Shown here in pieces: positions 16,444-21,003 of a stretch of 32,124 nucleotides of DNA; position 1 is the stretch's first letter, and each line of letters begins with the position of its first letter. The stretch is from a bacterium. GTDB taxonomy: Bacteria; Patescibacteriota; Saccharimonadia; Saccharimonadales; SZUA-47. Under the pieces are notes generated by a model, which made no database searches, was not told the origin of the DNA, and saw only the letters and a list, made by a program, of their open reading frames with translations. The DNA is taken from NCBI GenBank assembly GCA_030427365.1, contig JAUHWW010000009.1, forward strand, positions 1 through 32,124, in the 5' to 3' direction. The position numbers and the translations under genes were made by a program.

Positions 16444-17286
16444 CTAAAGATCTAGAGCCTTCACTGTATCAATCATTGCAAAGCTGAACGCGTTTCTTAA
16501 ATCACGGGCTCTCTCAGGATTGAAGTTAAGATTATGTTGCATGTGTGTTAACGCGGTATTGTATTCGAGCTGGAATGACTGCACATCGCAGGTGATTCCA
16601 AGAGACTGGAGTAATTCTGGATTACGACGAGAACTATAACGGCGTGTTATATAACCGCCTTTGTATACAAGATTGCGCTCTACACTATTTGGCAATTTAA
16701 AGAATGCCAAGTTGTCTTCGAATTTGGACGCTAGCGTCTCCATGATTTCAGGATCACAGCTGGCTTCCTCGTCTTCCAGAGGATCAAAGCTGCCCTCAAC
16801 GCCTCTGTTCGAAAGTATGAAATCTGGCATGCTTACCTTGTTTCCAGCTTCATCTGCGCCAATTTCATAGTCGGCAGTATTGTCCCAAGCAATAACGAAA
16901 GTAGGGCGATCACGAACGCTTAGATATTTAGTGATAACATCGTGATAAGGATTATAAAATGTTCGTTGGCAGAATCTTTTCTCGGCTTCTGTAAGTTCAC
17001 GTCCAGGCAACCAGATGTCATGACGCTCAGGCTTGCCGTAATCTTGATCCTGGAATCTGCCAGGGTCGTCCGGCGCCCTGTTGAGGTCACCGAGAGCACG
17101 GCTTTGTTCAGCAACCAGTGTAAATAATCCGTTTACAGGAACCGAATCAGCAGTGCCATAATCAGAAAAGCGAATTCCTTGCTCTGGCGTCAGTGCAACG
17201 CGCTCTGTGAACCTTTCAAAACCATGGCTAGCATGATGAGCAGAATAAATAGCAGGAACATCACAGGTGCCTATCCTAATTCGCAT
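16444..17286 (-). CDS. N-formylglutamate amidohydrolase-like protein
   Basis: SAHHASHGFERF, DLNRAPDDPGRF, YKGGYITRRY and QLEYNTAL resemble the FGase (PF05013) pattern. Confidence 0.65.
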   Translation of the reverse strand: MRIRIGTCDVPAIYSAHHASHGFERFTERVALTPEQGIRFSDYGTADSVPVNGLFTLVAEQSRALGDLNRAPDDPGRFQDQDYGKPERHDIWLPGRELTEAEKRFCQRTFYNPYHDVITKYLSVRDRPTFVIAWDNTADYEIGADEAGNKVSMPDFILSNRGVEGSFDPLEDEEASCDPEIMETLASKFEDNLAFFKLPNSVERNLVYKGGYITRRYSSRRNPELLQSLGITCDVQSFQLEYNTALTHMQHNLNFNPERARDLRNAFSFAMIDTVKALDL

Positions 17287-17361
17287 AATTTTATTATAAA
17301 ACTATTATATATTTAATGCAAATATATCGATTCCATCTCTCTATGATCCATTTCAGCGTGC

Positions 17362-17367
17362 TAAAAT
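17362..17367 (+). promoter_or_regulatory. Extended -10 (TGC TAAAAT) for the metK leader transcript
   Basis: TGCTAAAAT at 17359-17367; predicted TSS about 17373. Confidence 0.5.
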
Positions 17368-17373
17368 AGATAG

Positions 17374-17715
17374 CATTAACAATTAAACAATATACAGAGA
17401 ACCGGGAGAGAACTAGCTCGCTATAACCGGTCAGCAACCTTCCGGCGAATTTGCCACCAAGCCTGCTTGCTGCAGAGCAGCAACTCTGCTTGGCTCGCGA
17501 AAAAATTGCATTCTTTTTCCTGCGGATCCTCCCGCTACGTATTACTTATACGTTTTGGTCGGCGTCCTCAAAAAAATAACACAATTTTCCTCGCGCAAAT
17601 CCGCCTTAAGCTACAAGCGGAGTGGTGCTACGTCTAGCTTGTCCGGTCGGCCAAGAAAGATATTGTCCTTTAGTACATATCCTTTTGTCCTATATCCGGA
17701 CGGAAGGATATTTTT
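17374..17715 (+). ncRNA. Structured 5' leader of metK, candidate SAM-responsive cis-regulatory RNA
   Basis: Four-way-junction-like pairings 17395-17488 including CAGCAACC, and a 14-bp hairpin 17677-17711 covering the SD. Confidence 0.5.
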
Positions 17716-18825
17716 ATGTCATATCAACTATTTACCAGCGAATCGGTGGCGGCTGGTCATCCTGATAAGATCGCAGATGCTATCAGCGACGCGATCTTAG
17801 ACGCGATTTTGGAGCAAGATCCAGATGCTCGAACTGGACTCGAGACAATTGTCGGTGCGAATAAAATCGGGCTTTTTGGCGAAATAAAAACCTCAGCTAA
17901 GGTCGATTTTGAGAAAGTTGCGAGAGAAACGGTCAAACGCCTTGGCTATACCAATGCTGATTGGAACTTTTCAGACAGCTCACCGATTGACAACAACATA
18001 CATCAACAATCGCCGGAAATCGCTATCGGCGTTGATAACGACGGGGCGGGCGATCAGGGAATGATGTTCGGCTATGCATGTGAAGAAACGCCGGAGCTGA
18101 TGCCATTGCCAATTACTCTCGCACACACGCTGACCAAAACACTCGATCGAGCGCGAGAATCAGGTGCAATCAAATGGCTGCGGCCAGACGGGAAAAGCCA
18201 GGTAACCGTGGCGTATGAGGAAGGCAAACCTGCGTCAATCGAAAAGGTCGTGATGGCCGTAGCGCACAGTGAAGACGTTCAGCCAGAAGAAGTCCACGAG
18301 ACGATCATCAGCGCCATTATTAGTCCTACCCTAGAAAAATATGGCTATTCAGTGAACCCGGATAATGTGGTGATAAACGGCACCGGGCTCTGGCATATTC
18401 CCGGCCCTGACAGCGACGCTGGACTCACAGGACGTAAGATTGTTGTTGATGGCTACGGCGGATATGCGCGAGTTGGCGGCGGGGCATTTTCGGGGAAAGA
18501 TCCGAGCAAGGTCGATCGCTCAGCGGCCTATGCGGCGCGGTATCTGGCGAAAAACGTCGTCGCGAAGGGACTGGCCAGTGAGTGTGAAGTCGCGCTGGCG
18601 TACGTCATTGGTCGGGCAGAGCCGCAGATGAAGGCGTTTGATACCTTTGGGACAGAAACAGTTTCACTCGATGAGATTCAAAACTTTATTGATGAACTTC
18701 TAAACTGCAGCGTGAAGGGGATTGTCGAGGGATTAGACCTGAAGCGGCCAATCTATTCGCAGACAACGGCTTATGGTCATTTCGGTAAACCGGATCTGCC
18801 ATGGGAGCAGGTGGTTAGCTCGTAG
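17716..18825 (+). CDS. metK: S-adenosylmethionine synthetase
   Basis: LFTSESVAAGHPDKIADAISDAILDA, GAGDQGMMFGYA, GGGAFSGKDPSKVDRSAAYAARY. Confidence 0.97.
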   Translation: MSYQLFTSESVAAGHPDKIADAISDAILDAILEQDPDARTGLETIVGANKIGLFGEIKTSAKVDFEKVARETVKRLGYTNADWNFSDSSPIDNNIHQQSPEIAIGVDNDGAGDQGMMFGYACEETPELMPLPITLAHTLTKTLDRARESGAIKWLRPDGKSQVTVAYEEGKPASIEKVVMAVAHSEDVQPEEVHETIISAIISPTLEKYGYSVNPDNVVINGTGLWHIPGPDSDAGLTGRKIVVDGYGGYARVGGGAFSGKDPSKVDRSAAYAARYLAKNVVAKGLASECEVALAYVIGRAEPQMKAFDTFGTETVSLDEIQNFIDELLNCSVKGIVEGLDLKRPIYSQTTAYGHFGKPDLPWEQVVSS

Positions 18826-18847
18826 GTAGTAGCAGGGTGTTGAGCTA

Positions 18848-18905
18848 AATCCGCTTTATCTCAGTAGTAAGCTCTTGCGAGCTACTACGGGACAAGAAGC
18901 GGATT
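18848..18905. repeat. Nested inverted repeat: AATCCGCTT...AAGCGGATT enclosing GTAGTaAGCTC-TTGC-GAGCTACTAC
   Basis: 9-bp outer arms 18848-18856/18897-18905; inner 10-bp stem with one bulge, 18864-18874/18879-18888. Confidence 0.8.
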
Positions 18906-18929
18906 GTAGTACAGGACTAGCTATGCTAA

Positions 18930-18951
18930 AAAGCGGATTTAAAGCGGATTT
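18930..18951. repeat. 22-bp tandem repeat (AAAGCGGATTT)x2, copy 1
   Basis: Exact match to 19018-19039. Confidence 0.9.
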
Positions 18952-19017
18952 TAGGTTTTTAAAATACATCCGTTATTTTGCTGTAATGAGGTACAAGTCA
19001 TCGTACAGTCACGAGCG

Positions 19018-19039
19018 AAAGCGGATTTAAAGCGGATTT
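19018..19039. repeat. 22-bp tandem repeat (AAAGCGGATTT)x2, copy 2
   Basis: Exact match to 18930-18951, offset 88 bp. Confidence 0.9.
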
Positions 19040-19233: not shown

Positions 19234-21003
19234 ATGAAAGAGCTTATTGGGATATTGAAACTCGGCGGTAGCTTGCGTAAGAGCTACGTTGCTGTCAGCT
19301 TGATGACGATGCTGCTCAGTCTGCTGACGATTTTGCAGCCACTATTTTCTGGCTGGGCGATTGATGAGATTGGCAAGGGGGTAAATGCGAACGTTGCATA
19401 CGCGGGCATGCTTGCGGTTGGGATTTTTGTATTAGACGTGATGCAGACTGCACTGAGCAATGTGAGCGGCTATGTTGGTGATCAGATTCAAGTCAGATTG
19501 CAGAAAATTTTGAGCGAGAACTACTATCGCCACCTCATGACACTGCCGCAGAAGTATTTCGACGAAGAGCAGTCGGGCAAAATTATCGCGCGGCTGAACC
19601 GATCCATCGAGCAAATCGTGCGCTTTGTGCACATGATGACGAATAACTTCTTGCAGTTTATCTTTTCGACGCTATTTAGTCTGATCGTCGTCTCAATTAT
19701 CAGTTGGCAGATTGGATTGATGCTCGCGAGCCTCTACCCAATCTTTATTTGGATGACGGTGCGCACTAGCGGTACTTGGTTGGAATATCAGAATAAGAAG
19801 AACAAGCGCATTGATATTGCTGGCGGGCGCTTTGCGGAAGCCATCGGCCAGGTGAAGGTAGTAAAAAGCTATGGGCAAGAACAGCGCGAGCTTAGCTTCT
19901 TTCAAAAACAGCTATCAAAAGTCATCTACTACAACAAGCCTCAATCAAAGTACTGGCACGTGCGCGATGTGCAGCGCCGGCTCGTGCTCAACGTTATATT
20001 CCTTGCGGTATACGCGTTTATCTTTGTTAGAGGCGCGCAAGGAGCGTTTAGTCCAGGTGAAGCTGTCGCACTTATCCTATATGCGATGAATATTCGCATT
20101 CCTATTTTCACGATTAGCTTCCTGGTCGAGAATACCCAGCGGGCGGTAGCCGACAGTAAAGATTACTTTGAAATTATGGATGAGCTGCCAGAGGTTGATG
20201 ATGCTGGCGCTGAGCTGACCGTGAAAAAGGGCGCTATCACATTTGATGACGTGAGCTTTGGCTATAGTAAGAAAAATACTGTACTGAAAAATATTAGCTT
20301 TGATATAAAACCGGGAGAAAAAGTCGCTCTCGTCGGCGAAAGCGGCGAAGGCAAAACAACGCTAACGAATTTGCTGCTGCGTCTGTATGATCCGACAGAA
20401 GGGTCGATAACCATCGACAAGCAGTCAACGATCGGTGTGCGCCGCGCAAGTTTGAGAGAAGCCATTGGCGTGGTGTTCCAAGAGCCGAATCTATTCAGTG
20501 GCACAATCCGCGAGAACATAAGCTATGCCAATAATGACGCCAGCCAAAAGCAGATTGAGAATGCCGCCAAGGCTGCAAACGCACATGAATTTATCCGTGA
20601 GCTATCTGATGGGTATGACACCGAAATCGGCGAACGCGGCCTGAAGTTGTCCGGCGGGCAGAAGCAACGCATTGCGATTGCGCGGGCAATACTAAAAGAT
20701 GCACCGATACTTGTCCTTGACGAGGCGACGAGCAGCCTCGATAGTCGCAGTGAGCTGATGGTGCAAGAAGCCCTCGAGCGTCTCATGAAAGGACGAACGA
20801 CGATCATCATTGCCCACCGTCTCAGTACTATTCAGAACGTTGACACGATCGTTGCGCTCAAGAAAGGCAAAGTCGCAGAAGTCGGCTCGCCTGCAGAATT
20901 AGCTACATCAGGAGGCATCTATAGCAACTTACTCAAGGTGCAAACGGCGCGTTCAGCGGAGGAGCGTGAGGAAGCATTGAAGCGCTTCGGCATCGTTGAA
21001 TAG
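19234..21003 (+). CDS. ABC transporter, fused permease/ATPase (multidrug/lipid exporter type)
   Basis: N-terminal TMD; Walker A GESGEGKTT, LSGGQKQRIAIARAI, ILVLDEATSSLD. Confidence 0.93.
   Translation: MKELIGILKLGGSLRKSYVAVSLMTMLLSLLTILQPLFSGWAIDEIGKGVNANVAYAGMLAVGIFVLDVMQTALSNVSGYVGDQIQVRLQKILSENYYRHLMTLPQKYFDEEQSGKIIARLNRSIEQIVRFVHMMTNNFLQFIFSTLFSLIVVSIISWQIGLMLASLYPIFIWMTVRTSGTWLEYQNKKNKRIDIAGGRFAEAIGQVKVVKSYGQEQRELSFFQKQLSKVIYYNKPQSKYWHVRDVQRRLVLNVIFLAVYAFIFVRGAQGAFSPGEAVALILYAMNIRIPIFTISFLVENTQRAVADSKDYFEIMDELPEVDDAGAELTVKKGAITFDDVSFGYSKKNTVLKNISFDIKPGEKVALVGESGEGKTTLTNLLLRLYDPTEGSITIDKQSTIGVRRASLREAIGVVFQEPNLFSGTIRENISYANNDASQKQIENAAKAANAHEFIRELSDGYDTEIGERGLKLSGGQKQRIAIARAILKDAPILVLDEATSSLDSRSELMVQEALERLMKGRTTIIIAHRLSTIQNVDTIVALKKGKVAEVGSPAELATSGGIYSNLLKVQTARSAEEREEALKRFGIVE

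Follow-up and report, generated by a model that had tools for sequence, protein, structure and literature searches.

The leader of the S-adenosylmethionine synthetase gene metK in the window, by which we mean the whole 32,124-nt stretch analysed, is very probably a SAM-I (S-box) riboswitch that carries a repeated 168-nt element in its P3 loop, works in the SAM-OFF direction and has probably kept both aptamer and switch. As a riboswitch it belongs with the ordinary SAM-I members, and its insert is what makes it unusual and hides it from Rfam; the greater novelty lies in the family to which the insert belongs. An earlier note on this DNA had placed a SAM-I-clan aptamer in the leader, and that identification stands, with homologous leaders above the RF00162 gathering threshold and helices that covary.

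Identity and layout of the metK leader

A search with positions 17380-17500 led to 14 other genomes of the order, every match lying just upstream of metK. The matches span roughly 60 bases from the start of the 121-base query, with 59 nt up to 90% identical and E values down to 6e-17. In the relatives' leaders AUAU..AGAG is followed by a P2 that contains GAG/CUC and loops with CUAG; CAGCAACC and a short P3 come next, then GGUGCU..UCUAG, P4 and GAAAGAUAU. The SAM-clan covariance search that the earlier note had named as a check succeeded for these homologous leaders and failed in the window itself. RF00162 (Rfam SAM) recognizes nine of the 14 leaders above gathering, and cmscan with same-clan competition found no other SAM-clan family in them, SAM-IV and SAM-I-IV included. 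In the window, no Rfam family reaches gathering, nothing relevant appears at E <= 10 over 17200-17700, and RF00162 has no match there even at that level.

The Rfam threshold is missed because of an insert of about 168 nt in P3 (17441-17608). The interval between CAAC and GGUGC measures 185 nt in the window versus about 15 in a genome of the same genus; since the window shares all other parts of its relatives' leaders, the true partners of P1, the pseudoknot, P3 and P4 could be assigned. The repeat moves the real 3′ half (GGTGCTACGTCTAGC..P4..GAAAGATATTGT) about 170 nt downstream, so the imperfect match that had been read as "a divergent variant or a distinct class" arises from an interrupted P3. 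A clade covariance model of the aptamer (R2) scores 36 bits on the window (E 2.4e-6) with the wrong 3′ half aligned, and the true 3′ half was placed via anchor motifs. An RF00162 match of 19 bits on contig 5 of the same genome lies inside coding sequence and was rejected. The layout drawn from the relatives' leaders spans 17387-17711, expression platform included, and its aptamer parts are given here with the flanking promoter candidate and gene:

17359-17367, + strand: extended -10-like TGCTAAAAT, a putative promoter; several relatives have similar TGCTATAAT strings at the corresponding point of their leaders
17387-17393, + strand: P1 5′ strand ACAATAT, pairing with 17660-17666; AUAU:AUAU core in 36 of 36 aligned aptamers
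17396-17399, + strand: J1/2 AGAG, G17397 being the counterpart of G11 (alignment)
17401-17431, + strand: P2a ACCGG/CCGGT, non-standard kink-turn region, P2b GAG/CTC and loop AACTAG (covariation in relatives)
17413-17416, + strand: pseudoknot 5′ strand CUAG in the P2 loop, pairing with 17634-17637 (compensatory variants in relatives)
17434-17444, + strand: P3 5′ strand GCAACCUUCCG (J2/3-P3 core GCAACC kept in relatives)
17618-17628, + strand: P3 3′ strand CGGAG-U-GGUGC (GGUGC kept in relatives)
17634-17637, + strand: pseudoknot 3′ strand CUAG in J3/4 (covariation)
17638-17655, + strand: P4, CUUG/CAAG (sequence; P4 covaries in relatives)
17660-17666, + strand: P1 3′ strand AUAUUGU, preceded by J4/1 GAAAG (alignment, covariation)
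17716-18825, + strand: metK, S-adenosylmethionine synthetase, 369 aa (TIGR01034, 468 bits, above cut-off)

Once the insert is recognized, every helix of the P1-P2-P3-P4 four-way junction is present in the window, as are the P2 loop-J3/4 pseudoknot (CUAG/CUAG) and the conserved GCAACC/GGUGC core and GAAAGAU (17434-17439, 17624-17628 and 17655-17661). The whole leader (17380-17716) folds better than its shuffles (z -3.99, 0 of 100 as good). Among 36 aligned aptamers of relatives, 90.3% of cells form standard pairs versus 35-45% with the partners slid, a percentage favored by the structure having been drawn from one member of an alignment made by MAFFT without structure. Compensatory changes on both sides occur in 12 of the 27 pairs, and those in P2, P2b and the pseudoknot, all of which covary, are independent of this bias. 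The covariation score is 0.212 versus 0.136 in shuffles, none of 500 reaching it. The pseudoknot appears as CUAG/CUAG, CUGA/UCAG and CUGG/CCAG in relatives, with CGAG/CUCG and UUGG/CCAA in leaders outside the 36-aptamer alignment.

These results divide the helices that the earlier note had proposed, all of whose named strings are present where it put them. Conservation and covariation in the relatives' metK leaders bear out its P2 (ACCGG/CCGGT, 17401-17405/17427-17431) and P2b (GAG/CTC with loop AACTAG, 17408-17419), and conservation alone upholds CAGCAACC after P2 (17432-17439). Its P1, P3 and P4 are not aptamer helices and use insert bases absent from relatives. The 3′ parts of the P1 (CAGAG/CTCTG) and of the P3-like GGC/GCC lie in the insert that the same-genus genome lacks; the P4 (TTGCTGC/GCAGCAA) belongs to hairpin 1 of the insert, as its inner stem; and the GCAGAG/CTCTGC hairpin suggested as a P1/P4 switch falls with them, as it too is made of insert bases. 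The true 3′ half of the aptamer (17618-17666) lies outside the interval then considered. That a distinct SAM-clan class or a new four-way-junction RNA is built from these helices and that switch is therefore scarcely credible: the pairings exist on paper and their order is S-box-like, but the relatives' leaders refute it, the note's 111-nt region has no folding advantage over shuffled sequence (z -1.24, with 27 of 200 shuffles as good), and the insert is a separate repeat present elsewhere.

Like RF00162, the leader has the four-way layout, the GCAACC/GGUGC P3 core, the pseudoknot between P2 loop and J3/4, P4, GAAAGAU in J4/1 and metK as its target. It differs in the 168-nt repeat in the P3 loop, the non-standard kink-turn of its family, a weak AU-rich P1 and a Shine-Dalgarno-sequestering platform that ends in a U run just before the AUG. 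By alignment, the counterparts of G11, A45/A46 and U57-G58-C59 are retained in the window, likewise both P1 pairs adjoining the pocket; A45/A46 and U57-G58-C59 belong with G11 to the set of SAM contacts. G11 is a SAM contact in SAM-I (PMC3656099). The retained core suggests that the metK leader binds SAM. Another ligand for the same aptamer is very improbable. Spermidine-sensing SAM-I variants exist, one of them probed in a metK leader (PMC10853860), but these are altered at SAM-contacting positions, whereas the window and its relatives keep the SAM-I contacts and the relatives are recognized by RF00162. The reference C8-G86 pair has become A.G in the window, as in most of the clade. The kink-turn reads GCUAUAA rather than NNN-GA, most relatives having a bulge and GA opposite GA; non-standard kink-turns are common to several members of family f1 that have no insert, and such variants are able to fold inside SAM-I (PMC3651934). 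One relative (G006, L044) has an extra hairpin within the kink-turn bulge of P2.

Of 198 genomes of the order, 129 have a MetK match, and the aptamer is present in 67 of the 80 metK leaders examined. The enzyme occurs in two kinds, a longer one of about 365 aa that shares 55-81% identity with the window's and a shorter one of about 320 aa that shares 43-50%, and a match is absent in a third of the genomes, including 55 of 163 good-quality ones. In some relatives (L116 and L118, from G042 and G029) the aptamer precedes a short-type metK.

Expression platform and fate of the switch

Downstream of P1 lie three further features:

17659-17681, + strand: predicted anti-sequestor, GAUAUUGU with ACAUAUC (prediction in the window; folding of relatives' leaders)
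17677-17711, + strand: Shine-Dalgarno-sequestering hairpin of 14 bp followed by UUUU, terminator-like (folding)
17704-17708, + strand: Shine-Dalgarno AAGGA, 7 nt before the AUG, within the sequestor's 3′ arm (sequence; same layout in relatives)

The 14-bp hairpin formed by ACAUAUCCUUUUGUCC..GGACGGAAGGAUAUUUUUAUG pairs the AAGGA, and the 3′ strand of P1, GAUAUUGU, can alternatively pair with ACAUAUC at 17675-17681, overlapping the 5′ arm of the sequestor. An automatic folding test, which missed several leaders with the same hairpin because of a start-codon offset, found the Shine-Dalgarno paired in 38 of 60 scorable leaders and an anti-sequestor in 26 of the 38. The likely switch is modeled as a competition over 17659-17711 between the P1 3′ strand with its anti-sequestor and the Shine-Dalgarno sequestor. 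Binding of SAM would stabilize P1 (ACAAUAU/AUAUUGU), and P1, once formed, would keep its 3′ strand from the anti-sequestor. The freed ACAUAUCC arm would then enter the hairpin that hides the Shine-Dalgarno, and plentiful SAM would turn metK off. In this model, OFF control is probably translational; termination instead is possible, since the hairpin before the AUG ends in a U run. The SAM-I riboswitch of Xanthomonas campestris acts mainly on translation (PMC7270179), and the window shares with it a SAM-I aptamer and a probable control of translation. Nothing in the window suggests uncharged-tRNA sensing, and its leader is short, with the sequestor adjoining the AUG.

Whether the insert broke this switch has to be weighed. 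A decayed riboswitch, with SAM sensing lost, metK constitutive or driven from elsewhere and the aptamer a relic, might be argued from the 168-nt P3 insert, the longest among 67 aptamers, together with the non-standard kink-turn and the drop in clade-model score. We consider this unlikely: none of P1, P2, P2b, the pseudoknot, the P3 base, P4, the anti-sequestor and the sequestor has lost its pairing in the window, the ligand-contact positions are intact, the P3 loop lies distal to the pocket, six more leaders carry P3 spacers of 56-109 nt, and the f1 members described above have non-standard kink-turns without any insert. The switch with its insert most likely still works, as a translational OFF switch in which the element would form a folded P3 extension. 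The P3 of a SAM-I aptamer can thus house a whole foreign folded element, and insertions of this kind conceal riboswitches from standard covariance searches, so annotation pipelines miss them.

The structured repeat in P3

The insert is itself a structured unit with three mapped features:

17441-17608, + strand: P3 insert, full-length copy of a three-way-junction element (covariance model R1, 52 bits, E 3.8e-14, model positions 1-167)
17457-17493, + strand: element hairpin 1, CCAAGC/GCUUGG, with inner UUGCUGC/GCAGCAA and a CUGC/CUCU internal loop (fold, R1)
17497-17594, + strand: element hairpin 2, with cap ACGUAU-UACUU-AUACGU at 17537-17553 (fold, R1)

A DNA search gave a 36-nt match (92%) in another genome, and its surroundings share the two-hairpin shape. 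Because a MAFFT alignment of the insert with its relatives misplaced the stems, a covariance model (R1) was used instead, built from three such elements with the window excluded. The insert with the P3 arms folds far better than shuffles (z -4.44). A repeated self-folding element would seem to have landed in the P3 loop, its own three-way junction sitting atop an intact P3 base.

No Rfam family covers the element. A second copy in the same genome lies between genes on contig 31 (48 bits). Within the order, 77 of 295 genomes have a match at E <= 0.1 (75 of 295 with a best E <= 1e-5), many of the 77 with at least nine each, and among 287 genomes across the phylum, nine outside the order match as well, two of them at about 1e-20. 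Three candidates were set aside: a weak R1 match at 19272-19406 (11.6 bits) in a coding region was taken as chance, as was a pattern match in G286 within an ABC transporter gene, and the hairpin cap proved not to be a phage signature, its IMG/VR matches being AT-rich palindromes unrelated to the element.

The element consists of an outer stem interrupted by an internal loop, a hairpin 1 whose CUGC/CUCY internal loop is conserved, and a hairpin 2 capped by a GUAU..AUAC stem. Over 37 matches (33 full copies, the other four being weak or on the reverse strand), pairing holds in 90.9% of cells versus 28-35% with the partners slid, changes affect both sides in 56 of 58 pairs, and covariation reaches 0.707 versus 0.202 in shuffles, the covariation figures being somewhat inflated, though hardly to the extent observed, by the fitting of the alignment to the model. 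Complementarity stops sharply at the ends of the model. No target-site duplication was detected, the longest identity between flanks averaging 4.24 nt versus 3.86 in shuffles with a shuffle maximum of 4.24. The element is apparently mobile. We tentatively propose an undescribed mobile structured family of Patescibacteria in which selection acts on the folded form, be it RNA or single-stranded DNA, perhaps because processing, excision or copying of the element goes through that structure; selection on the folded form is proposed because 56 of 58 pairs covary alongside conserved loops. If this is true, proteins entered in frame, tRNA ends and a riboswitch aptamer all survive its insertion. With covariation this strong, what selects for the structure is directly testable.

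The long P3 spacers of six other metK leaders (G016, G052, G082, G094, G131 and G182) gave no match to R1 and so are different sequences. The one in G182 (contig 108:10085-10165, L086) is another palindromic repeat (GGTAGATAGTAGATGG..), which has 17 more matches elsewhere in that genome, most of them partial. This second, unrelated repeat in P3 suggests that the SAM-I P3 loop is a recurrent tolerated landing site.

Genomic settings and known counterparts of the element

Copies of the element are found in frame in PcrA, MnmA, Fpg, Tgt, Der and a ZIP transporter, with protein-family matches on both sides, open frames throughout and both orientations represented (loci L134, L133, L123, L135, L146 and L148, respectively). 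The window's own ZIP transporter gene (834-1619) is an uninterrupted version of the element-bearing one. The gene-antisense orientation encodes a recognizable shared peptide (..GASEARTESYKRYGEGALESATP..). One copy stands directly 3′ of tRNA-Met (G069 contig 10, L028/L120, SLOC01000025.1), where it is part of a stretch of about 330 nt; at the end of that stretch the tRNA 3′ end recurs (GTCCTCCCCCCGCTACCA), as though the whole had integrated at tRNA-Met. The element appears to spread into protein-coding, tRNA-adjacent and regulatory RNA sequence. These settings bear on whether it is a functional RNA module of the switch, such as a second sensor or a processing site, instead of a passive repeat. 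Very strong covariation and conserved loop bases exceed what decaying repeat copies would be expected to show, but the copies occur in either orientation, within protein reading frames, beside a tRNA and between genes, with no common regulatory context, and only one of 67 metK leaders has the element, which makes such a role improbable.

Bacterial MITEs (ERIC, RUP, Correia, BOX) are short, non-autonomous, folded repeats that lie between and within genes, and the element is likewise short, folded, intergenic and intragenic. It departs from them in having no detected target-site duplication, ends that vary yet stay complementary and no parent transposon or transposase linked to it. Its settings match those of the Rickettsia palindromic elements, interspersed repeats of 105-150 bp that lie in frame in conserved proteins and also in tmRNA and RNase P RNA (PMC2229807, PMC10969869). 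The window's element shares their character as an interspersed, multicopy palindromic repeat that lies in frame in conserved proteins; it differs as a three-way junction of about 168 nt with conserved loops, whose hosts are Saccharibacteria and a small number of other Patescibacteria, and with a riboswitch among its sites. Judged by analogy with those published descriptions, it looks like an independent counterpart in Patescibacteria. The open-access literature yielded no report of elements of this kind from Saccharibacteria or within a riboswitch, which does not prove their absence.

Element insertions cluster, as opposite-orientation copies lie at most a few hundred bases apart at two loci (L136:1223-1394 and 1501-1669; L132:1501-1671 and 1940-2108). 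The window also holds a second palindromic repeat cluster downstream of metK, where AAAGCGGATTTA / TAAATCCGCTTT recur several times, in direct and in inverted orientation, across 18846-19039.
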